64,000 bases of DNA from Rosistilla carotiformis (GTDB taxonomy: Bacteria; Planctomycetota; Planctomycetia; Pirellulales; Pirellulaceae): assembly GCF_007753095.1 (NCBI RefSeq), contig NZ_CP036348.1, positions 2,852,001-2,916,000 on the forward strand, read 5' to 3'. Both the position numbers and the translations under genes were made by a program. Each line of letters opens with the position of its first letter. Positions within the stretch are counted from its first letter, which is position 1. The notes beneath the pieces are model-generated. The model did no database searches. It was not told where the DNA came from and worked only from the letters and a program-made list of their open reading frames with translations. Positions 4,047-47,254 of this stretch are shown in pieces.

Positions 4047-4120
4047 CCGATAAGGGCCGCGCGGTGCTGTTCAGTAATCGAGACGCAGGGGGGCGGGCGG
4101 CGTGTTTCGATTTGCTTCCG

Positions 4121-4212
4121 GATGGCAACCCCCGCACAAAGGTACCCCGCTTATGGCTGCTCCAGTTAAGGCCTGACCAAGTTCACGGTTCCCCATCGCA
4201 AGGGTCACCATC
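4121..4212 (-). ncRNA. ffs: Bacterial small signal recognition particle RNA (4.5S type)
   Basis: RNA component of the signal recognition particle, which with Ffh targets membrane and secreted proteins. The minus strand carries the universal core GTGAACTTGGTCAGGCC, an apical loop UUAACU, then TGGAGCAGCCATAAGCGG. The ends pair (GATGGTGACCC with GGGTTGCCATC), giving a 92-nt hairpin without an Alu domain. The apical loop is of the URRC-like type (UAAC) rather than the common GGAA. It lies 74 nt upstream of dnaX on the same strand, a placement also seen in Bacillus. End positions are set by the terminal pairing and may be off by a few bases. Confidence 0.92.
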
Positions 4213-37834: not shown

Positions 37835-40498
37835 ATGACACGTTGTACGAGCGTCGACCCGTTCCCGCGGGCTGTGTGGCTATGTTTGTTTACGTTGGCG
37901 ACCTGTGGAGGGTTGCGGGCACAAACGCCGATCGTGGCTCCGTCGGTTGTCTTTGCCGAAACCGATGGAATGCTTGCCGTCGAAGCAGAGCACTTTTTCC
38001 AGCAGACGTTGTCCGATACTCGGGCTTTCTACCTGACACACGCTACGCAAACGCCGGCGGCTCAGCCCGATGGCGACCCGACTCATGTTGCCGGCGCAAG
38101 CGGCGGCGCCTACCTGGAAATTTTGCCCGACACGCGTCGCAACCATGGCCATAAGTTAGTCAAGGGCGTGAACTTCGCTCCCGAGGCGGGGGCGATGGCG
38201 GTGCTGCATTACAAAGTTCACATCGCCAATCCGGGCCGGTACTATGTTTGGGTTCGCGCGTATTCCACGGGGTCCGAAGACAACGGGCTGCATGTCGGAA
38301 TCGATGGACAGTGGCCTGCAAGCGGTCAAAGGATGCAGTGGTGTGAGGGGAAGAATGGCTGGCGTTGGGAAAGCAAACAACGAACCGACCAGCAACACTG
38401 TGGCGAACCGTACAAAATCTTCCTCGACATCGAATCGGCGGGCGAACATGTGATTCAATTTTCGATGCGTGAGGATGGATTCGAATTCGACAAATGGCTG
38501 CTCACACGGGAACGTGACTTCACGCGTCCCAACGGGGTGGGCCCATCGCCGGTCGTTCATTCGGGGACGCTGCCCAAACCGTTTCCGATGGTCCCCGCCG
38601 CCGCAGCGGCCGCGCAACGCTCAAGTCCCACCAAGCCATCAAGCCTGCAACCTCTCCAATTGCCACGCCGTCGCGATGGAGATGGTCGCGTTTCGGTCTC
38701 CGGCGAAACGAAGCAATGGCACAAGGTGACACTCGACTTAAACGGACCCTTCGCTCATGAGAAAGACAATGCGCCGAATCCATTTACCGACTATCGAATG
38801 ACGGTCCGATTCACGCATGACGATGGAAAGGCCTACACCGTGCCGGGTTACTTCGCAGCCGACGGGAATGCGGCGAATTCGTCCGCGGAATCGGGGACCG
38901 TGTGGCGGGCGCACTTTGCTCCCGATCGAACCGGTACGTGGAACTATGTGGTTTCGTTTGATCAAGGCAATGGGGCCGCATTGGACAGCGCGGTGGACGC
39001 GACGCCGATGCAGCCGTTTGATGGAGTGTCGGGAAGTCTTGAGATTGAAGCCAGTGATAAACGCGGACGCGACTTGCGCGGGCAAGGCCGATTGCAATAC
39101 GTCGGAAAGCACTACTTGCAGTTCGCGGGCTCACAAAAGTACTTCTTGAAAGTGGGAGCCGATGCGCCCGAAACGCTCCTTGCCTACGCCGACTTCGACA
39201 ACACCATCGCGGGCAATCCTAAGAAGGCTCCGATCAAAACGTGGGGGCCGCATCGCAACGATTGGAATCCGGGGGATCCGACTTGGGGAGACCAGAAGGG
39301 ACGCGGGCTGATCGGTGCGATCAACTATCTGTCGGGTAAAGGCTGCAATGCGTTTTCTTTCCTGACCTACAACGCCGGCGGTGACGGAGACAATGTGTGG
39401 CCGTTCATTCAGCGTGAGGATAAGCTGCATTACGATTGTAGCAAGTTGGACCAATGGGGAATCGTTTTCGACCACGGAACCGCTCGAGGAATGTACTTGC
39501 ATTTTAAATTGCAGGAGACGGAGAACGACGACCATCGCACCGGAAAAGGAAAACAGGGCTTTGTTCCCGAATGTTTCGATGACGGCAATCTGGGCGTACA
39601 GCGAAAATTGTATTGCCGCGAGTTGGTCGCGCGTTTCGGGCACAACCTCGCGTTGAACTGGAACATCGGTGAAGAGAACACACAGAGCACCGAACAACAG
39701 GTGGCGATGATCGACTATTTGGCTGAACTCGATCCATACGATCACCACATCGTACTGCACACGTATCCTGGCCAACACGATCGGATTTACGGTGCGCTGC
39801 TGGGGGAACGGTCCAAGCTGACGGGGGTCTCGTTGCAGAACAGCAGTCTCCAAGCGACCCATGCCGATACGCTCCGGTGGGTGCGTGAATCGGCACGCGT
39901 CGGTCGGCCATGGGTTGTGGCGTTTGATGAATCAGGGAGTGCAGCTCATGCACAGGCTCCGGACCTTGGGTACCGAGGCTTTGATGGACATGACCGGACA
40001 GGAAAAATGGCGGAGACTCAGCATGACGTGCGCAAGCTAACGCTGTGGGGGACGCTGATGGCCGGTGGCGCCGGGAACGAATACTACTTCGGATATCAGT
40101 TCGATGAGAACGATATCGTTTGCCAGGATTGGCGCAGCCGCGACCAAAGTTGGGACTACTGTCGTATCGCAATCGCATTCTTTCATGACAATGCGATTCC
40201 ATTCTGGGAAATGAAAAACGCGGACGCTTTGGTTGGCAACGACGATCACGGCGATTCGAAATTCTGCTTTGCGAAGCCGGGCGAGATCTATTTGGTCTAC
40301 CTTCCCGATGGTGTAACTTCCGAACTGGATTTGTCCAACGTCGACGGTTCCTTTCGAGTCCATTGGTACAATCCCCGCGTGGGTGGCGACCTGGCAACGG
40401 GCTCGATCAAATCGGTGCAGGGTGGATCGAAGGTTGCTTTAGGGGCCGCCCCGCAAGACGCGGACGAAGACTGGTTAGTCGTTCTTCGCAAGGATTAA
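37835..40498 (+). CDS. Secreted DUF5060-type putative glycoside hydrolase
   Basis: 887 residues with a signal peptide ([19 protein letters not shown]). An N-terminal beta-sandwich binding-type domain ([10 protein letters not shown] ... [20 protein letters not shown]) is followed by a DUF5060 domain near 290-410 ([20 protein letters not shown]), then a TIM-barrel-like catalytic region ([33 protein letters not shown] with candidate acid Glu residues, [14 protein letters not shown]), and a C-terminal beta domain resembling collagen-binding-like modules ([18 protein letters not shown]). Likely degrades a polysaccharide outside the cell; substrate unknown. Opposite strand to the ECF operon and upstream of an M28 peptidase 107 bp later, with which it may form a unit. 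Confidence 0.82.
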
Positions 40499-40605
40499 GC
40501 GAGCGTTGCGTTGCGAAACGCGAGACACGTCGTCGGTGATCACCGCTGTCCACAGACCCGTCGCCGGCGGCATCGTAGGTTCTTCAACAAAACTCATTTC
40601 CAATC

Positions 40606-42273
40606 ATGCTGTACCACTTGCTTCGAACGGTTTCGCTAGTCTGGTTCGCGACGCTTGCCGATGCTCAAGTTCCCGAGGTCGCATGGCAGCGGGCGGCGGA
40701 GAGAATCGATCAAGCGACGCTCCGTGGCCACGTGCGCTTCCTTGCCGACGATCTACTGGAAGGACGCGGGCCTGGAACCCGTGGCGATCGGTTGGCCCAG
40801 CGGTATCTTCAGGCTCAATTTCAGGCCGCCGGCCTGCAACCGGTGCTCGGTGACACGTGGTATCAACCGGTGCCGTTGGTCGGCGTGAAGACCCATTGCC
40901 CGCCGACGATGACATTCTCCAAGGGGGATACCACGTTGAGTCTGAACTATTTTGACGACTACATTGCCACCGCCGGTCGCGCGGCGGATCGGACGTCGGT
41001 CGAAGAGGCCGAAGTCGTTTTTGTCGGTTATGGAATTGAAGCCCCTGAGTTCGATTGGGACGACTACAAGGATGTGGATCTGACGGGGAAAGTGTTGCTG
41101 ATGTTGAACAACGACCCGGCCGACGATCCCGATTTGTTTGCCGGTCGTCGGCGACTGTACTACGGTCGTTGGGACTACAAATATCAGAGCGCCGCGATGC
41201 AGGGCGCCGCCGGGGCGATCATCATTCACACGACGGCATCGGCAGGGTATCCATTTCAAGTCGTGCAGACTTCTTGGAGCGGTGAAGAGTTTCAGTTGGC
41301 CGATTCGGCAGCGCCACCGATGGAGCTGCGAGGTTGGGTCAGCGCGCGGGCGGCCGAACGACTGGTCGAGCACGCGGGGATGAATTTAGACGACTTACGC
41401 GCTGCGGCCGAACGCCGTGATTTCCGTCCGATCGCTCTGGGGACGCGTTTGTCGATGGATCTGCCGTGTGAGGTCCGCAAAAAAGAAACGGCCAACGTGC
41501 TAGGAATGTTGCCCGGCAGCGACCCTCTGTTGAGCGAAGAGGTCGTCGTGTTTATGGCGCATCACGATCACATCGGATTGGCGGAAGCACGCGATGAAAC
41601 GGGCGACAACATCTACAACGGGGCGGTCGACAACGCATCGGGCTGCGCCGCGATGCTGGCGATTTTAAAAGCCTGCACCGAATTGGAAGTGCGTCCTCGA
41701 CGATCGATCTTGTTTGCGGCCGTGGGGGCTGAAGAACAAGGATTGTTGGGATCGAAATATTTTGCCGAACATCCTCCTGTCGCGCCGGGGCGGATGGCCG
41801 CGGTGATCAATATTGACGGAATGAATGTGATCGGCCGGACGCACGACGTGAACATGATCGGCCATGGAAAGAGCGATCTCGACGCGATCGTGACCGCGGT
41901 TGCCGCATGGCAACAACGGATCGTCACGCCCGACCAATTTCCCGATCGTGGATATTATTATCGCAGCGATCAATTCAGCCTCGCCCAGATTGGCGTTCCG
42001 GGCGTTTACCTGCATTCTGGAATCAACGTCGTGGGGATGCCTTCGGAGTGGGGAAAACAACGACTGGAACAATGGATCGAAGAAACCTACCACCAGCGCA
42101 GCGATGAATACCGCGATGATTGGGATCTCAGCGGCGCCGTCGAAGACATCCGCCTGCTGTTCTACGTAGCAATGCAGGTCGCCACGGCGGACAAGATGCC
42201 TGCCTGGCGACCGGGGGATGAATTCGAATCGGCTCGCAAGAAAGCGCGTCGAGCGATCCTCGCGAGCCCATAG
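40606..42273 (+). CDS. Secreted M28-family zinc aminopeptidase with PA domain
   Basis: 555 residues. Signal peptide MLYHLLRTVSLVWFATLADA. A protease-associated domain is inserted (EVVFVGYGIEAPEFDWDDYK, GAAGAIIIHTTASAGYPFQV). M28 zinc ligands and catalytic acids are recognisable: AHHDHIG (His), GAVDNASGCA (Asp bridging both zincs), GAEEQGLLGS (catalytic Glu-Glu), NIDGMN (Asp) and the late His in TYHQRSDEY. Family members act as aminopeptidases or glutamate carboxypeptidase-like enzymes in the periplasm or outside. Ends 16 bp from the stop of the convergent Ig-like gene. Confidence 0.92.
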   Translation: MLYHLLRTVSLVWFATLADAQVPEVAWQRAAERIDQATLRGHVRFLADDLLEGRGPGTRGDRLAQRYLQAQFQAAGLQPVLGDTWYQPVPLVGVKTHCPPTMTFSKGDTTLSLNYFDDYIATAGRAADRTSVEEAEVVFVGYGIEAPEFDWDDYKDVDLTGKVLLMLNNDPADDPDLFAGRRRLYYGRWDYKYQSAAMQGAAGAIIIHTTASAGYPFQVVQTSWSGEEFQLADSAAPPMELRGWVSARAAERLVEHAGMNLDDLRAAAERRDFRPIALGTRLSMDLPCEVRKKETANVLGMLPGSDPLLSEEVVVFMAHHDHIGLAEARDETGDNIYNGAVDNASGCAAMLAILKACTELEVRPRRSILFAAVGAEEQGLLGSKYFAEHPPVAPGRMAAVINIDGMNVIGRTHDVNMIGHGKSDLDAIVTAVAAWQQRIVTPDQFPDRGYYYRSDQFSLAQIGVPGVYLHSGINVVGMPSEWGKQRLEQWIEETYHQRSDEYRDDWDLSGAVEDIRLLFYVAMQVATADKMPAWRPGDEFESARKKARRAILASP

Positions 42274-42289: not shown

Positions 42290-43933
42290 TCAGCTGGCCG
42301 TTGCCGGTTCGGGGGCTTCGCGTGCCGATTCCGGTAACTCAGGACCCATTTGCAATTCATCTTCGATCTCGATCGGTGGGGTTGAGTCGTCGCCGTCGAT
42401 CTTGATTTGGTACCGGTATTTTCCCGCGGGCGGGGCGAATTTGGTTCGGAAGCGCAACAGGAATTCCTCGCCGGGCAACAACCAGCGGCCATAACCCGCT
42501 TGCATTTCGACGGCTCGGCCAAACGCATCGACCATCTTGAGGTTGCCCTGTAAGGGGAGATGCATCTGTCCGGTGTTGCGGACCGGCAGGACAAAGGCGG
42601 GCGGTTCGGTGGAGCCATCCCACTGCAAAGGATCCCATTGAACGAGGGGCGTTTGTTCGGTTCGGGCCAACAAGGCGACAGGAATCGAAAACTCGCCGAC
42701 GATTTCCCCGGCGTCGGATGTGACGATCACGTTCAGGTGCGTATAACGATTCAGATCGTCACTGTTGTGAGCGTCTAGGGTCGCTAAAAATTTGCGGTGT
42801 GAACCCGCGCGAACTTTCAATTCGGTTGGCCGGACGATCAGGCCATCGACAAATGCGCTGCCGGATTGCGGTTGGATGTCGACGGTCACATCCTGCGGAC
42901 TATTGTTCTTGATCTCCACGGCAACACGTCGGTTCCCGCCACGTCGCATGGACAGTTCCACTTGGCTTGGAGCGACGGTGATGTCGCGTGCCGCTTGGAT
43001 CAGCAACGCATCTTGGGCGGGGAACTCGCCCGCTCGAATCGTCACGGGAAAGACTTGCTTCTTGCGGGTTCGTCGATTGGTGATCAGCGAGACTTCCATT
43101 TCGTGCTCCCCGGGAAACGCTGCTTCGGGCAAGCGATGTTCCAATCGCAGCCGCGCCCCCGGAAGGATACGCACGTTGTAGCGTTCATCCGATTCGACCG
43201 ATTGGCGATTGGGCATGCTTAACGAAAAGCGGTTTTTCCCCGCGGTAGAACCCGCCCGCACGAAGCCGGCTTGGGCCTGAAACTCGAGAGGGCTTTCGGT
43301 GCTGTTGGTGATCCAAACGCGAGCCTTCGCGAATCCATCATCTTCGATCAGCTCAACCGATTCGATGTCGATGTTGGCTGCGTCTTCGCCCCGCGCTCCG
43401 GTGACGGTTACGTCGACACGCAACAGATAACGGGTTACGAATCGAACGCCCACACGCCGCGTCTTGTTGTCGCCCGCGGCAATCGGCCGCTGTTCCACAA
43501 TCCGGCCTAGGTCGGTAACTAGCAAGCCGAACGAATGGAAATTTCCCGAGTTGCTGGGAACTCGAAGACGACACTCAATGGTCGACAGTTCGTTTTCGGC
43601 GAGTTGAATATCCGCGGGACTGAGCAGTTCGAGGTTGTCGGGGGCGGGAGATTCAGTGTCCGGCAAAATGGTTCCATCGGACTCCTGTCGCAAAGAGACG
43701 GTCTGGACATGCAATACGGTCGGCCGTTCGACCGATTCGATATCAAATTTAACAGGTATCCGCTTTCCACGTGTCGCCTCGAACTTGTGCGACATTGGAG
43801 TCACGTGGAAGGCGGGTTTCACATCCGGCCGCAGCTTCAATTCTTGATTGAATCCCTGCGATTGCGCGACGACGGGGGCGACGGATACGAGAACCAGTGT
43901 GACGGTCCAGGCAAATAGACGGTAGTTTGTCAT
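42290..43933 (-). CDS. Secreted multi-Ig protein with pilus-chaperone-like N-terminus
   Basis: 547 residues with signal peptide MTNYRLFAWTVTLVLVSVAPVVAQ. The mature protein is almost entirely predicted beta structure. Its first ~200 residues show a pattern like PapD-type chaperones: FHVTPMSHKFEATRGKRIPV, then a DG turn (RQESDGTILP), LLSPADIQLAENELSTIECR and SFGLLVTDLG. Several further Ig-like modules follow (VAVEIKNNSPQDVTVDIQPQ, LPLQGNLKMVDAFGRAV), ending in a Glu/Pro-rich tail. No enzyme motif. It starts 52 bp after the secretin stop on the same strand, so it belongs with the secretin and the small beta-rich secreted protein upstream. A periplasmic chaperone or structural role is inferred, not shown. 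Confidence 0.75.
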   Translation of the reverse strand: MTNYRLFAWTVTLVLVSVAPVVAQSQGFNQELKLRPDVKPAFHVTPMSHKFEATRGKRIPVKFDIESVERPTVLHVQTVSLRQESDGTILPDTESPAPDNLELLSPADIQLAENELSTIECRLRVPSNSGNFHSFGLLVTDLGRIVEQRPIAAGDNKTRRVGVRFVTRYLLRVDVTVTGARGEDAANIDIESVELIEDDGFAKARVWITNSTESPLEFQAQAGFVRAGSTAGKNRFSLSMPNRQSVESDERYNVRILPGARLRLEHRLPEAAFPGEHEMEVSLITNRRTRKKQVFPVTIRAGEFPAQDALLIQAARDITVAPSQVELSMRRGGNRRVAVEIKNNSPQDVTVDIQPQSGSAFVDGLIVRPTELKVRAGSHRKFLATLDAHNSDDLNRYTHLNVIVTSDAGEIVGEFSIPVALLARTEQTPLVQWDPLQWDGSTEPPAFVLPVRNTGQMHLPLQGNLKMVDAFGRAVEMQAGYGRWLLPGEEFLLRFRTKFAPPAGKYRYQIKIDGDDSTPPIEIEDELQMGPELPESAREAPEPATAS

Positions 43934-43984
43934 GTTAGGAATCTTGCAATTCGTTTACGAACATTGCGCAGCCGTGCGGCAAGT

Positions 43985-45502
43985 TTAGCGAGCGGGGGCA
44001 ACCGCTTGCAGGGTGTCCGTATGAGGGGGCGTTTGAAGCACCCGAACCTCTCCATAGGTGTTCGGGTAAACAATTTGAGGAGAAATGAACACAGTCACTT
44101 CGGCCTCGGCATTCTGTTTATCGACTTGGCGAAACATCTTTCCAATCCAGGGAATGTCTCCAAGGATGGGAACACGACTTTCGCGGTCGATCATTTGTCG
44201 ATGGGTCAATCCGCCGATCGTGATGGTTTCTCCATCGCGAACGTCAACGGTGGTGGTGACATAACGACGATTGATTAACGGATAAGGGTTTGCCAAATCG
44301 GGATCGGTTCCGGTTTCGCGAATGTCTTCGCTGACCTCGGCCCGCTTGATCGTTACCGTGACCATATCACCACGAATTACCGGAGTGATTTCGAGCACGA
44401 TGCCCGATTCCACTTTTTCGATATCCTGTCGATAAAATACGTCGCTGTTCACCGGTTGGGTACTGAAAAACGTTTCTCGATTGATCGAGATCTGTGCCTC
44501 TTCGCCATTTTTCGCCATCACGCGTGGCGACGCCGTGATGTCCAGGTAACCTTCCTGTTCAAGGCATCGCAGGAAGTAAGCGGTGGTGCCGAAATTGCCA
44601 AACAAATCGCCGATCGATCCGGGGGACAGCGTGCCTGAAAGCGCGAGGCCCGAAAGGCCCGCGTTGATCCCACGACTGGTGCCGTCGGCCAAGATCTGTT
44701 GGAGATCCATTCCGAACTGATAGGAAGTGTCTGGGGAATGCACCGTCACCATGGCTTCTAAGATAACTTGCGGTTGTGGCTGATCGGCGTTCTGCAGTTC
44801 CCGCAGGATCTCATCGGCCAGTTCCTGCGGTGCGTGGATCACGACCAGATTCCGTTTGCCGACAATCCGTACGTACTGCTGCAATTTTTCGGGTAGCAGC
44901 GGTAGCAGGTCGGCCGGGGCGTAGTGCTGCGGTTGATAGTCCATCTTGATCGAGAGGTAGCGGAACAACGTGGACGACGGATCGGAGGAACCGACAAGGT
45001 ACTGCCCATTTCGCATGCCCCAGATGTATCCCAACGGCAACAGGATCTGTTCGAGTGCCTGTTCAAACGGCACCTCTTCGAAGACGGCGGTTGCAACGCC
45101 CGACACTTGGTCATCGATCACGACGCTGACTTTTGCTTGCAGAGCAAGCGATTGGATGGCTTCTCGGATTTCGGTCTCTTCGAAAATTTCGTCGACCAAC
45201 GGACTCATGGCGACTTGGGAGACATGCGTGACACGGCGGATGAATGACGAATATTCATCGGAACCGTCGATCGCAAGGCTTGATGTGGTGCGAGGTAGCC
45301 GCGATGGTGTCGGCGGCTTTTCTCGAGTGTTGGATACGCGTAGCGTCTCCAGCATGATCTCGTCAAGCGAACGTCGCGCCGGCGGTGTCGTGGTTTTGCA
45401 ACCAACGATCAGGATGCAAAGGGCTGCGACCGCTAAAACAGCGGATGGCCAAGTTGTCCCACGGTCGCGACGCGATAGCGATAGGTTTCTGATTCGAATC
45501 AT
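43985..45502 (-). CDS. Lipoprotein secretin (GspD/PilQ superfamily)
   Basis: 505 residues. N-terminal helix ending in lipobox LIVGC (Cys35). A short secretin/TonB N-terminal domain (SLALQAKVSVVIDDQVSG ... VPFEQALEQILLPLGY) is followed by one N1-like ring domain (ADLLPLLPEKLQQYVRIVGK, LADEILRELQNADQPQPQ), then the secretin core: LEAMVTVHSPDTSYQFGMDL, ITASPRVMAKNGEEAQISI, ESGIVLEITPVI, DGETITIGGL and VPILGDIPWIGKMF. It should form the outer-membrane gated ring. The ATG at 45502 is used; TTG at 45553 would add 17 residues. No GspE-type ATPase, GspF/GspL platform or pseudopilin gene is in the window. A strong terminator lies 63 bp upstream. Confidence 0.92.
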   Translation of the reverse strand: MIRIRNLSLSRRDRGTTWPSAVLAVAALCILIVGCKTTTPPARRSLDEIMLETLRVSNTREKPPTPSRLPRTTSSLAIDGSDEYSSFIRRVTHVSQVAMSPLVDEIFEETEIREAIQSLALQAKVSVVIDDQVSGVATAVFEEVPFEQALEQILLPLGYIWGMRNGQYLVGSSDPSSTLFRYLSIKMDYQPQHYAPADLLPLLPEKLQQYVRIVGKRNLVVIHAPQELADEILRELQNADQPQPQVILEAMVTVHSPDTSYQFGMDLQQILADGTSRGINAGLSGLALSGTLSPGSIGDLFGNFGTTAYFLRCLEQEGYLDITASPRVMAKNGEEAQISINRETFFSTQPVNSDVFYRQDIEKVESGIVLEITPVIRGDMVTVTIKRAEVSEDIRETGTDPDLANPYPLINRRYVTTTVDVRDGETITIGGLTHRQMIDRESRVPILGDIPWIGKMFRQVDKQNAEAEVTVFISPQIVYPNTYGEVRVLQTPPHTDTLQAVAPAR

Positions 45503-45564
45503 CCGTGATGTCGTCAGTGAAAGGAACCGAACTGCGACGGTTGTGGAAGACAACGTCGATTGTC

Positions 45565-45609
45565 AAAAAAGCTCTATCGACGGTCTCATACCTTAGGACC
45601 GTCGATAGA
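45565..45609 (-). terminator. Strong intrinsic terminator between subunit and secretin genes
   Basis: On the minus strand TCTATCGACGGTC (45609-45597) pairs perfectly with GACCGTCGATAGA (45585-45573), 13 bp, with an 11-nt loop, followed by GC and TTTTTT (45570-45565). It lies 73 bp after the stop of the small secreted protein gene and 63 bp before the secretin ATG. Partial read-through would make the small protein far more abundant than the secretin, as in pilin operons. TTGACA directly follows (45566-45561) and might be a -35 element for the secretin, though no good -10 is seen. Confidence 0.88.
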
Positions 45610-45682
45610 AGCCAGATTTGCGAGCGACCGTGCGTGCGCGATTGGCGTTCCACCACCCCGGCACGGTTCGTTGGGGAAAGGA

Positions 45683-46204
45683 CTATTTCGCGGTGAGCGT
45701 TCCGGTGACGGTCAACTCATAGTCGCCAGCCGCCAAGTCCGTGAAGGTTTCTTCCACCAAGCTGACTCCAATGTCAAAGTTGGCGGCGCCGGGAGTAAAC
45801 GATTCGGCGGTCACCGAAACCTCTTCCAATGACGATCCATAGTTGGTGGTTGCCGAACCGTTGGTCACAGTCCAGGCATCGCCAGAAGCTTTGGCGAGCG
45901 TCAGATAGGCATCGCGTTTGTAGTTGCTGTCCAACGTGTGTGTGAACGCCTGGTCGGTTGTGAAAACCGCCATGGCACCGCCGGTGTTGTTTGCGGTTAC
46001 CAACCAGCGTTGGATTGGAAAGACTTGATCGTTGTCGGTTTCGTCGTGAATCTGCGATACCGTGGCGCTTGGCGCCGTGATCGACAGCGTCGATGGGACG
46101 GTCACGCGGAATAACTCACTATCGGTTTCTTGTGCCTGCGCCGAAGCGGCGATTGCCAAAGAAAGACCGAACGAAACAACTGGGGCGATTGACTTGCGGA
46201 ACAT
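45683..46204 (-). CDS. Small secreted beta-rich protein, candidate fibre subunit A
   Basis: 173 residues with a signal peptide (MFRKSIAPVVSFGLSLAIAASAQA cleaved after AQA). The mature ~150 residues are Thr/Ser/Val-rich alternating strands: FRVTVPSTLSITAPS, QIHDETDNDQVFPIQRW, AVFTTDQAFTHT, YKRDAYLTLA, and the C-terminal AGDYELTVTGTLTAK. No cysteines or enzyme motifs. Clear paralogue of the protein at 46721-47254, sharing IHD-TD-NQ, QAFTHT, KR-A and the C-terminal AGDYELTV-GT-T-K pattern. Good ribosome binding site AGAGGA eight bases before the ATG. Followed by a strong terminator and then the secretin and Ig-like genes. A surface fibre or matrix subunit is the favoured guess. Confidence 0.75.
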   Translation of the reverse strand: MFRKSIAPVVSFGLSLAIAASAQAQETDSELFRVTVPSTLSITAPSATVSQIHDETDNDQVFPIQRWLVTANNTGGAMAVFTTDQAFTHTLDSNYKRDAYLTLAKASGDAWTVTNGSATTNYGSSLEEVSVTAESFTPGAANFDIGVSLVEETFTDLAAGDYELTVTGTLTAK

Positions 46205-46720
46205 AGTAGAATCCTCTAGTTAACAGGGGTACCGATGTACACATCGGACGTTAGTGAAGCAACGAATTAGCCGAATTGGCCGCAACATTGCATTTAATCG
46301 TTAGTTCTGCCCCATTTCTCCCAGCTTGTGTTGTCGTCCAATGCGACGGCAACGCCCCAAAGCCGGTCCAGAGATCGCACTGCCCTTTCCGCAGTCGCGA
46401 CTTGCTGTACGAAATTAATAAGTCGTGATTTCGAGCAACGCAAAAAACAATCGGGCATTTTTGCCAAGTTTCGCTAGAGTGCCGGGGGGCGAGTATTTAC
46501 CCCCTCCCCTCACTGCTGTCGACTAGACACCGTGACGGCCGTGGGAGATCATCCCTAACAAAAACGAACGCCGTTGGGAATAGATGTTGGGTTGATGCAA
46601 TAACAAAAGGATGCAGCGGAATCTGGCAGATGGTGCTAACAAGGTGTTTATTAGAAGCTATCTTTCATGCATTGACCAAAATCCACGTTTCACTCCTTCG
46701 TTTCAAACAGAAAATATCCC
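46205..46720. other. 516-bp divergent control region between two subunit paralogues
   Basis: Separates the two beta-rich secreted protein genes. AT-richer than its surroundings. It contains a palindrome at 46232-46247 (listed separately), a G6...C5 inverted repeat (46484-46504, GGGGGG then CCCCC), and an inverted repeat CGAAAT/ATTTCG near 46410-46432. No gene seen. It probably holds both promoters and shared regulation. Confidence 0.5.
46232..46247. promoter_or_regulatory. Perfect palindrome in leader of subunit A gene
   Basis: CCGATGTACACATCGG: two 7-bp arms (46232-46238, 46241-46247) around a 2-bp centre, 28 bp upstream of the ATG at 46204. The symmetry and placement fit a dimeric regulator site overlapping the leader or promoter. 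No second copy was seen near the other paralogue. Confidence 0.45.
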
Positions 46721-47254
46721 ATGTCGAGAACCTTTTCTGTCGCCGCGATCGTACTGGCGATGCAATTGACAACGGTCGATGCGGAAGACGCGCAAGACCA
46801 ACAACACTACAGAATGCGTGTTCCGGGGGTCGTTGCGATCAATGCGACCAACAGTTTGGCGCATAAGATTCACGATCTGACCGATGCCAATCAGATCATC
46901 GACTGGCAGCCGTGGCAGGTTGTCTGCAATAGTCCCGCCGGTGCGATAGCGACTTTTGAAACAACGCAAGCGTTCACGCATACGACCAAACCTACGGTCA
47001 AGCGGAATGCGTGGCTGTTTTTGTCGAGAGCGACGGGGTCGTTCTTTTTCCCCAATGATGCCTGGCAAGTCACGCTTGCTGCCGACGAGACCAACTATGC
47101 TGCAGGTGATGGCGTCGCGTTGGTGAGGGCAGAAGTGAGCGCCGTGAAGACTGCGAACCTACATCTGAGAGTTGTTTTCTTGGAAGAAAATTTCGCCGAT
47201 ACGATCGCGGGGGATTACGAATTGACAGTGATCGGTACGATCACCCCCAAGTAG
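46721..47254 (+). CDS. Small secreted beta-rich protein, candidate fibre subunit B
   Basis: 177 residues with signal peptide (MSRTFSVAAIVLAMQLTTVDA). The mature part parallels subunit A over its whole length: YRMRVPGVVAINATNS, KIHDLTDANQIIDWQPWQV, ATFETTQAFTHT, VKRNAWLFLSRA, DAWQVTLAADETNYAAGD and the end AGDYELTVIGTITPK. By eye about 30% identity. It has one extra Cys near residue 69 (VVCNSPAG). No enzyme motif. Transcribed away from subunit A; the ribosome binding site is weak. Downstream hairpins at 47269 and 47306 end the unit before the convergent dnaE. Confidence 0.75.
   Translation: MSRTFSVAAIVLAMQLTTVDAEDAQDQQHYRMRVPGVVAINATNSLAHKIHDLTDANQIIDWQPWQVVCNSPAGAIATFETTQAFTHTTKPTVKRNAWLFLSRATGSFFFPNDAWQVTLAADETNYAAGDGVALVRAEVSAVKTANLHLRVVFLEENFADTIAGDYELTVIGTITPK

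Follow-up and report, generated by a model that had tools for sequence, protein, structure and literature searches.

A small secreted subunit, a lipoprotein secretin and a protein with four immunoglobulin (Ig)-like domains form a conserved gene unit whose linkage goes far beyond chance. The gene set seems to join fimbria-like subunits and their holder protein to a type of outer-membrane gate that otherwise serves quite different machines, and we lean, by a small measure, towards reading it as a chaperone pathway in which the secretin serves as the exit. The window, that is, the whole stretch of 64,000 nucleotides that was analysed, comes from a genome of 7.4 Mb in one contig and carries the following features.

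45683..46204, minus strand: subunit A (SUB), 173 aa, with a signal peptide recognized by eye followed by a beta sandwich of ~149 residues, pilin-like
46070..46132, minus strand: N-terminal extension of mature subunit A (residues 1-21), QETDSELFRVTVPSTLSITAP, a candidate donor strand
45570..45613, minus strand: strong hairpin and T-rich run between subunit A and the secretin, a candidate partial terminator
43985..45502, minus strand: secretin (SEC), ~505 aa from its likely ATG, in a reading frame that opens at 45553; lipobox (by eye), N0-like (STN) domain, probable N1 domain (by eye) and secretin domain
42290..43933, minus strand: four-Ig-domain protein (IG), 547 aa, with a signal peptide recognized by eye, a PapD/WxLIP-like candidate chaperone
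43418..43453, minus strand: most conserved stretch of the Ig protein (full-length residues 161-172), VGVRFVTRYLLR, a candidate chaperone donor strand
46721..47254, plus strand: subunit B, 177 aa, a divergent paralogue of subunit A

All four reading frames are open at these positions and, as the preliminary description had reported for this cluster, subunit A, the secretin and the Ig protein follow one another in that order on the minus strand (42290-46204), with subunit B divergent. The secretin probably starts at ATG 45502 rather than at TTG 45553, because the same-genus relative starts at a matching MIRIR. The neighbours checked in the window were an M28 peptidase, a DUF5060 protein, DnaE and an FHA protein.

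Among 117 related genomes, the source genome included, the subunit, the Ig protein and the secretin (E <= 1e-60) each occur in an identical set of seven and nowhere else, and one genome of the same genus (G001) carries none of the three. The Ig-protein profile, run against bacterial genome contigs with one peptide pattern, recovered 16 loci, all titled as planctomycetes; two of them (L052 and L055) repeat loci already in the set, which gives 21 distinct loci with the window. The order subunit-(second subunit)-secretin-Ig protein on the same strand, with at least one subunit-family gene, is kept in 20 of the 21; the secretin of L054 is broken into two frames, and the sole subunit-family gene of L048 is cut by the contig end. 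In the exception, L057, neither a secretin nor a subunit lies in the 5.3 kb upstream of the Ig gene, and the contig ends inside that gene. Since near-copies occur among the loci (L046/L049; L021/L053/L056), the independent cases are fewer than 21. By sequence, the same-genus locus has DnaE and FHA neighbours in common with the window, and the neighbours of the gene set differ between genera. Ten flanking proteins of six other loci (L018-L023) included no secretion family: eight belong to families of 4HFCP synthase, pyruvate carboxylase, isocitrate dehydrogenase, CutC, DUF1571, GGDEF, esterase and oxidoreductase, and two have no family.

Distances between the proteins were further correlated over 18 loci, giving Mantel r values of 0.92 for the Ig protein and the secretin, 0.85 for the Ig protein and the subunit and 0.76 for the subunit and the secretin (0 of 999 permutations each), in a set that retains near-identical pairs such as L046/L049, which raise the correlation. 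The rows removed from this comparison were L052 and L055 (copies of L020 and L021), L048, L054 and L057 (cut or broken) and L024 and L061 (single subunit only). Because shared descent alone would also produce a correlation of distances, these data support co-inheritance, not contact.

Across 392 phylum-wide genomes, the subunit profile matched two, the source genome included, the Ig profile matched seven, five of them weakly, and 13 were matched by a profile built from three of the distant Ig proteins. Seven distant Ig proteins were chosen for the length of their match (at least ~360 profile positions), and every one is encoded directly next to a secretin (L062, L063, L064, L082, L083, L084 and L085); of these, L062, L063 and L064, first found with the near-lineage profile, built the distant profile and match it by construction. 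The Ig proteins of these three loci align with the near-lineage Ig proteins at an hhalign probability of 99.7 over 455 columns. Small beta-rich secreted proteins, judged by eye, adjoin the distant Ig gene in six of the seven long cases. The gene order is subunit-subunit2-Ig-secretin in L082 and L083 (L084 has an extra subunit), subunit-subunit-Ig-secretin in L085, subunit-Ig-secretin in L063 and secretin-subunit-subunit2-Ig in L064; L062 presents Ig-secretin at a contig end. By eye, the distant small proteins share a layout of signal peptide, beta-rich body and terminal G/A-x-Y strand. Three of them showed no detectable homology to the near subunit (hhalign probability 0.5), and they are therefore called subunit-like by layout only. 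At eight loci where the Ig match was short or weak (L065, L086-L089 and L091-L093), no secretin was seen, and three of these loci (L065, L089 and L091) are contigs of less than 4.5 kb; the weak match in G136 (L035) lies outside this count. Extending the search to the class of G126 (9 genomes) and to that of G264 (12 genomes) yielded no further distant loci.

Subunits A and B, described earlier as paralogues, are indeed 40% identical over 175 positions (E 7e-38). The source genome carries a third, isolated copy elsewhere, for three subunit paralogues in all; G475 has four, and subunit B also occurs in the same-genus relative G002. The model of mature subunit A (pLDDT 94.6) is a beta sandwich. 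The top match in a fold search of the PDB was the PapG pilin domain (E 9.1e-4), further best matches being CS17, CfaB, FimG, PapE, CooA, Csu and Caf1, and by our count chaperone-usher pilins or pilin domains make up 24 of the best 50 rows, including ranks 1-5. Of 1260 matches, a single one falls under E 0.001; the listed pilins align at TM-scores of 0.26-0.53, with rmsd values higher than 6. The modelled fold of subunit A is thus closest in the PDB to chaperone-usher pilins with modest scores, and given those TM-scores we treat the likeness as a lead, not as membership. A profile search of PDB sequences with subunit A gave no match, so that the pilin similarity is one of fold only. The most conserved window of the subunit is the C-terminal strand, and the N-terminal strand ranks third among separate windows. 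Residues 1-15 of the mature protein are modelled mostly with confidence, yet they belong to no strand of the monomer.

The second subunits (SUB2) have no N-terminal extension in nine aligned rows (six near-lineage and three distant), from which those of L049 (near copy of L046), L051, L054 and L064 were left out; that of L051 is not clearly shorter. The absence of the extension is the pattern expected of a tip or cap that accepts a strand and does not donate one.

The Ig protein gave no Pfam match above a curated cut-off. Its model (pLDDT 85.1) contains four Ig-like domains by our reading of the strand list. The highest-ranked fold matches are long Ig arrays of cilia, and 380 chains pass E 0.001, among them WxLIP (E 1.8e-9), WxLIP bound to WxL (2.8e-9), YadV (3.9e-9; TM 0.55 of target) and EcpB (6.2e-8; TM 0.53 of target), all of them given per chain and not per domain. 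At the profile level, the window protein matches Pfam WxLIP below the cut-off, in its third domain and not its first, and the distant Ig protein of L062 passes the Pfam WxLIP_PGBD cut-off in its first domain. PapD_N was reached by one of 14 members only (E 0.008). A profile search of PDB sequences found no match for the window protein and nothing convincing for the distant ones. The preliminary description had seen a PapD-like N-terminal pattern in this protein. Its modelled fold is similar both to WxLIP and to the periplasmic chaperones of pili, YadV and EcpB among them, but with four Ig domains, and with closest solved relatives that include the Gram-positive WxLIP, it is not a plain PapD. 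A comparison by eye of the residues of the PapD cleft gave no clear match and was set aside. Absence of linkage in related genomes and folds of unrelated families had been named beforehand as outcomes against the initial proposal; neither occurred, the genes being adjacent and ordered in the shared genomes and the modelled folds being pilin-like and WxLIP- and chaperone-like.

Conservation within the Ig protein was scanned in 467 windows of 12 residues. The most conserved 12-mer, VGVRFVTRYLLR (mature residues 137-148), has an entropy of 0.37 compared with 0.88 for the next separate window and a median of 1.75, and it is preceded by a loop of pLDDT <50 at mature residues 122-133. A similar loop precedes the donor strand G1 of PapD, and the most conserved segment of the Ig protein, as a candidate donor strand, lies at the corresponding place. 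A disordered hairpin of WxLIP is predicted to become ordered and to fill a gap in WxL, according to an excerpt of PMC10599100.

The secretin assignment of the preliminary description, which called the protein a compact lipoprotein secretin, is borne out by a Pfam Secretin match of 1.9e-38, above the cut-off, and by a lipobox (LIVGC) recognized by eye after the likely start. An N0-like STN match (8.6e-5) falls below its cut-off, as do all matches to the system-specific secretin models of NCBIfam. The nearest sequence relatives are PilQ and GspD, and the matches include the solved virion export protein 7ofh. Three other secretin matches in the source genome are weakly similar. No usher (PF00577) was detected in 14 carrier genomes, the source genome included, with a positive E. 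coli control; ten of the 14 have a completeness of 90% or more and a contamination of 5% or less, and the other carriers from the 16-locus contig scan lie outside this test. The claim that no usher is present thus holds for the source genome and 13 other carriers. The companion claim, that a secretion ATPase is absent, stands for the neighbourhood of the cassette and not for the genome: the source genome has ten T2SSE-type ATPases, the nearest ~448 kb away, and such ATPases occur in 14 of 14 carrier genomes and equally in 14 of 14 control genomes.

A hairpin of -20 kcal/mol or lower follows the subunit gene in seven of ten loci without a second subunit (three of the seven being close relatives) and follows the secretin gene in none of 18, of which 11 have a secretin-Ig junction that leaves no room for one. 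The stretches around the seven hairpins form more stable folds than shuffled sequences do (z -1.9 to -5.5); the one of G002 has no clear T run. A simple terminator scan showed no excess (6 against 6.5 expected) and did not list the window hairpin at 45570..45613. As a candidate partial terminator, the hairpin would raise subunit output.

From these features we infer a course of subunit chaperoning by the Ig protein, the Ig domains that act in it, strand exchange, polymerisation, export through the secretin and the energy source. Subunits A and B, with signal peptides in their sequences, would be exported by Sec. In the periplasm, the two N-terminal Ig domains would hold each subunit, and the Ig protein would probably lend a strand, from the region of VGVRFVTRYLLR, to an incomplete pilin-like beta sandwich. 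The Ig protein, perhaps by means of its two additional Ig domains, would then carry the subunits to the lipoprotein secretin, where the N-terminal extension of the next subunit would displace the chaperone strand, and a fibre or short oligomer would grow and thread the secretin ring. Where present, a second subunit without the extension may form the tip or cap. Folding and packing energy, not a local ATPase, would supply the power; in archaic pili, folding and packing energy kept by chaperone and usher can drive assembly and secretion, as stated in an excerpt of PMC9452303.

The same features have been weighed against other readings. The gene set could be the diderm counterpart of WxL complexes, with the Ig protein permanently binding and anchoring the subunits as a non-polymerising surface or periplasmic complex and the secretin acting as an exit only. 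The fold matches to solved WxLIP and WxLIP-WxL structures and the WxLIP_PGBD match of the distant L062 protein argue for this, as does the prediction, in PMC10599100, that WxLIP inserts a hairpin strand into WxL. However, no WxL domain (Pfam) was found in subunit A, subunit B or the 14 rows of alignment A6, the Ig model has no long C-terminal helix (only one of four residues at 511-514), and the N-terminal extension of the subunit, absent in the aligned second-subunit rows, fits a polymer better. We regard this reading as rather unlikely. Another makes the secretin the outer-membrane component of a machine of the type II secretion or type IV pilus kind that is scattered over the genome, with the subunits and the Ig protein as its substrates or accessories. 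At a distant locus, in G472, an Ig-secretin pair, at which no subunit was seen, is followed ~4 kb downstream on the same strand by two T2SSE genes, T2SSF and pseudopilin-like genes, for which reason this rival is kept; the sequence affinity of the secretin to PilQ and GspD and the T2SSE-type ATPases of all carriers, though shared by all controls, point the same way. It is nevertheless quite unlikely in our judgement: this secretin type co-occurs with the subunit and the Ig protein in the same 7 of 117 genomes, the nearest T2SSE gene is far from the cassette, none of the ten flanking proteins from six other loci belongs to a secretion family, and the source genome has its three other secretin matches.

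A periplasmic sensing or envelope module, in which the secretin would work as a gated pore for uptake and the small proteins would be beta sandwiches that bind ligands, is favoured by the capacity of secretins to import as well as export, mentioned in an excerpt of PMC5745081. We consider it improbable in view of the pilin-like fold ranks of the subunit, the several subunit paralogues of some genomes (three in the source genome and four in G475) and hairpins that would favour high subunit output. The chaperone pathway in which a secretin takes the role of the usher, as the preliminary description had proposed, is partly supported, by the linked gene set, the pilin-like and chaperone-like modelled folds and the absence of an usher. 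The link to crateriform pits suggested there is not supported. Fibre-bearing pits are described for Planctopirus and Gemmata in an excerpt of PMC5394234, and neither name is among the 16 loci of the one-peptide-pattern scan. With the source genome counted in both sets, 7 of the 117 relatives carry the subunit and 2 of the 392 phylum genomes carry a member of its family, and a pit apparatus was rejected as the main reading because the set of subunit, Ig protein and secretin is patchy even within the genus.

There is a real chance that the chaperone-secretin pathway forms a distinct class. In full, such a fibre-assembly class would comprise donor-strand pilins, a WxLIP/PapD-like chaperone, extrusion through a lipoprotein secretin with no usher or ATPase, and an extension-less second subunit as tip or cap, a description that we hold tentatively and with less than balanced confidence. 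Known secretins serve as exits in type II and type III secretion and for type IV pili and filamentous phage, and the known way out for donor-strand fibres is the usher. No chaperone-secretin fibre pathway was found among the matches listed in openly licensed PubMed Central articles, searched by titles and abstract openings. If the reading is true, Gram-positive WxL complexes and chaperone-usher pili would be joined by one chaperone superfamily with different exits. The gene set makes it testable whether the usher can be replaced and whether a fibre can pass through a secretin without a dedicated ATPase, and confirmation by experiment would establish a new route for building surface fibres. It also provides named genes for fibre tests in planctomycetes, where fibres have been seen according to PMC5394234.

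Among known systems, the type II, type IV pilus and Tad machineries resemble the present one in the secretin, which is nearest to PilQ and GspD and has a sub-threshold N0-like match; unlike in those systems, no ATPase lies near the window, and the subunits carry ordinary signal peptides, by eye, rather than those of pseudopilins. Filamentous-phage pIV has a compact secretin architecture, as here, and the virion export protein 7ofh is among the secretin matches, whereas no phage genes occur among the neighbours checked in the window and in the flanks of other loci. Gram-positive WxL/WxLIP clusters likewise combine a small beta-sandwich partner with a WxLIP-like multi-Ig protein in clustered genes; the present set differs in including a secretin, in having no WxL domain and in its four Ig domains. 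Compared with chaperone-usher systems (classical, alternative CFA/I-like and archaic Csu-like), the set has a secretin and no usher gene, four Ig domains in the candidate chaperone and subunits without a sequence-level pilin match, and we place it outside the chaperone-usher family because the usher is absent. It nonetheless resembles these systems in its small secreted subunits, modelled as beta sandwiches with an N-terminal extension, in the conserved C-terminal G-x-Y strand of the subunits, in having more than one subunit type and in the PapD-like fold match of the Ig protein.

Subunit genes also occur outside the cassette, both in R. carotiformis itself and in the carrier genome G475:

L024 8253-9044 (C1:5266537-5267040), third subunit paralogue in R. 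carotiformis
L059 11740-12312, additional subunit gene in G475, immediately beyond the Ig gene
L061 8585-9217, additional subunit gene in G475, on a separate contig

Neither a secretin nor an Ig gene was found in the 19 kb examined around the third paralogue. At L054 6669-9872, an unrelated N-terminal part is fused to the subunit and the secretin is spread across two frames, irregularities which are an assembly error or decay. In the distant relative G472 (L062 151-3664 and L090), the Ig-secretin pair is followed by genes encoding a lipoprotein-like protein, a FecR-domain protein, T2SSE, T2SSF and pseudopilins. This layout possibly represents a hybrid or ancestral arrangement. Further features were annotated in the window:

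4118-4212, minus strand, bacterial small SRP RNA
37835-42273, DUF5060/collagen-binding-domain secreted protein and M28 peptidase in convergent orientation to the Ig gene

Small secreted proteins were also found together with two-Ig proteins at four other loci:

L086 4920-9617, small beta-rich secreted proteins (judged by eye) and a two-Ig chaperone-like protein
L088 4587-10579, the same combination, small proteins likewise judged by eye
L101 5969-11571, Deinococcus plasmid cluster
L102 5848-11533, Deinococcus plasmid cluster

No secretin was found with the L086 and L088 clusters; downstream of the latter lie proteins with NEW3-like and carboxypeptidase-regulatory matches, both sub-threshold. 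Each Deinococcus cluster comprises a small secreted protein, a two-Ig protein (weakly WxLIP-like in L101), a small protein and a protein of ~1000 residues, in which Ig-like and SdrD_B-like domains flank a long middle part that may form a beta barrel. This large protein has no match to the outer-membrane usher family PF00577 and is a candidate usher analogue.
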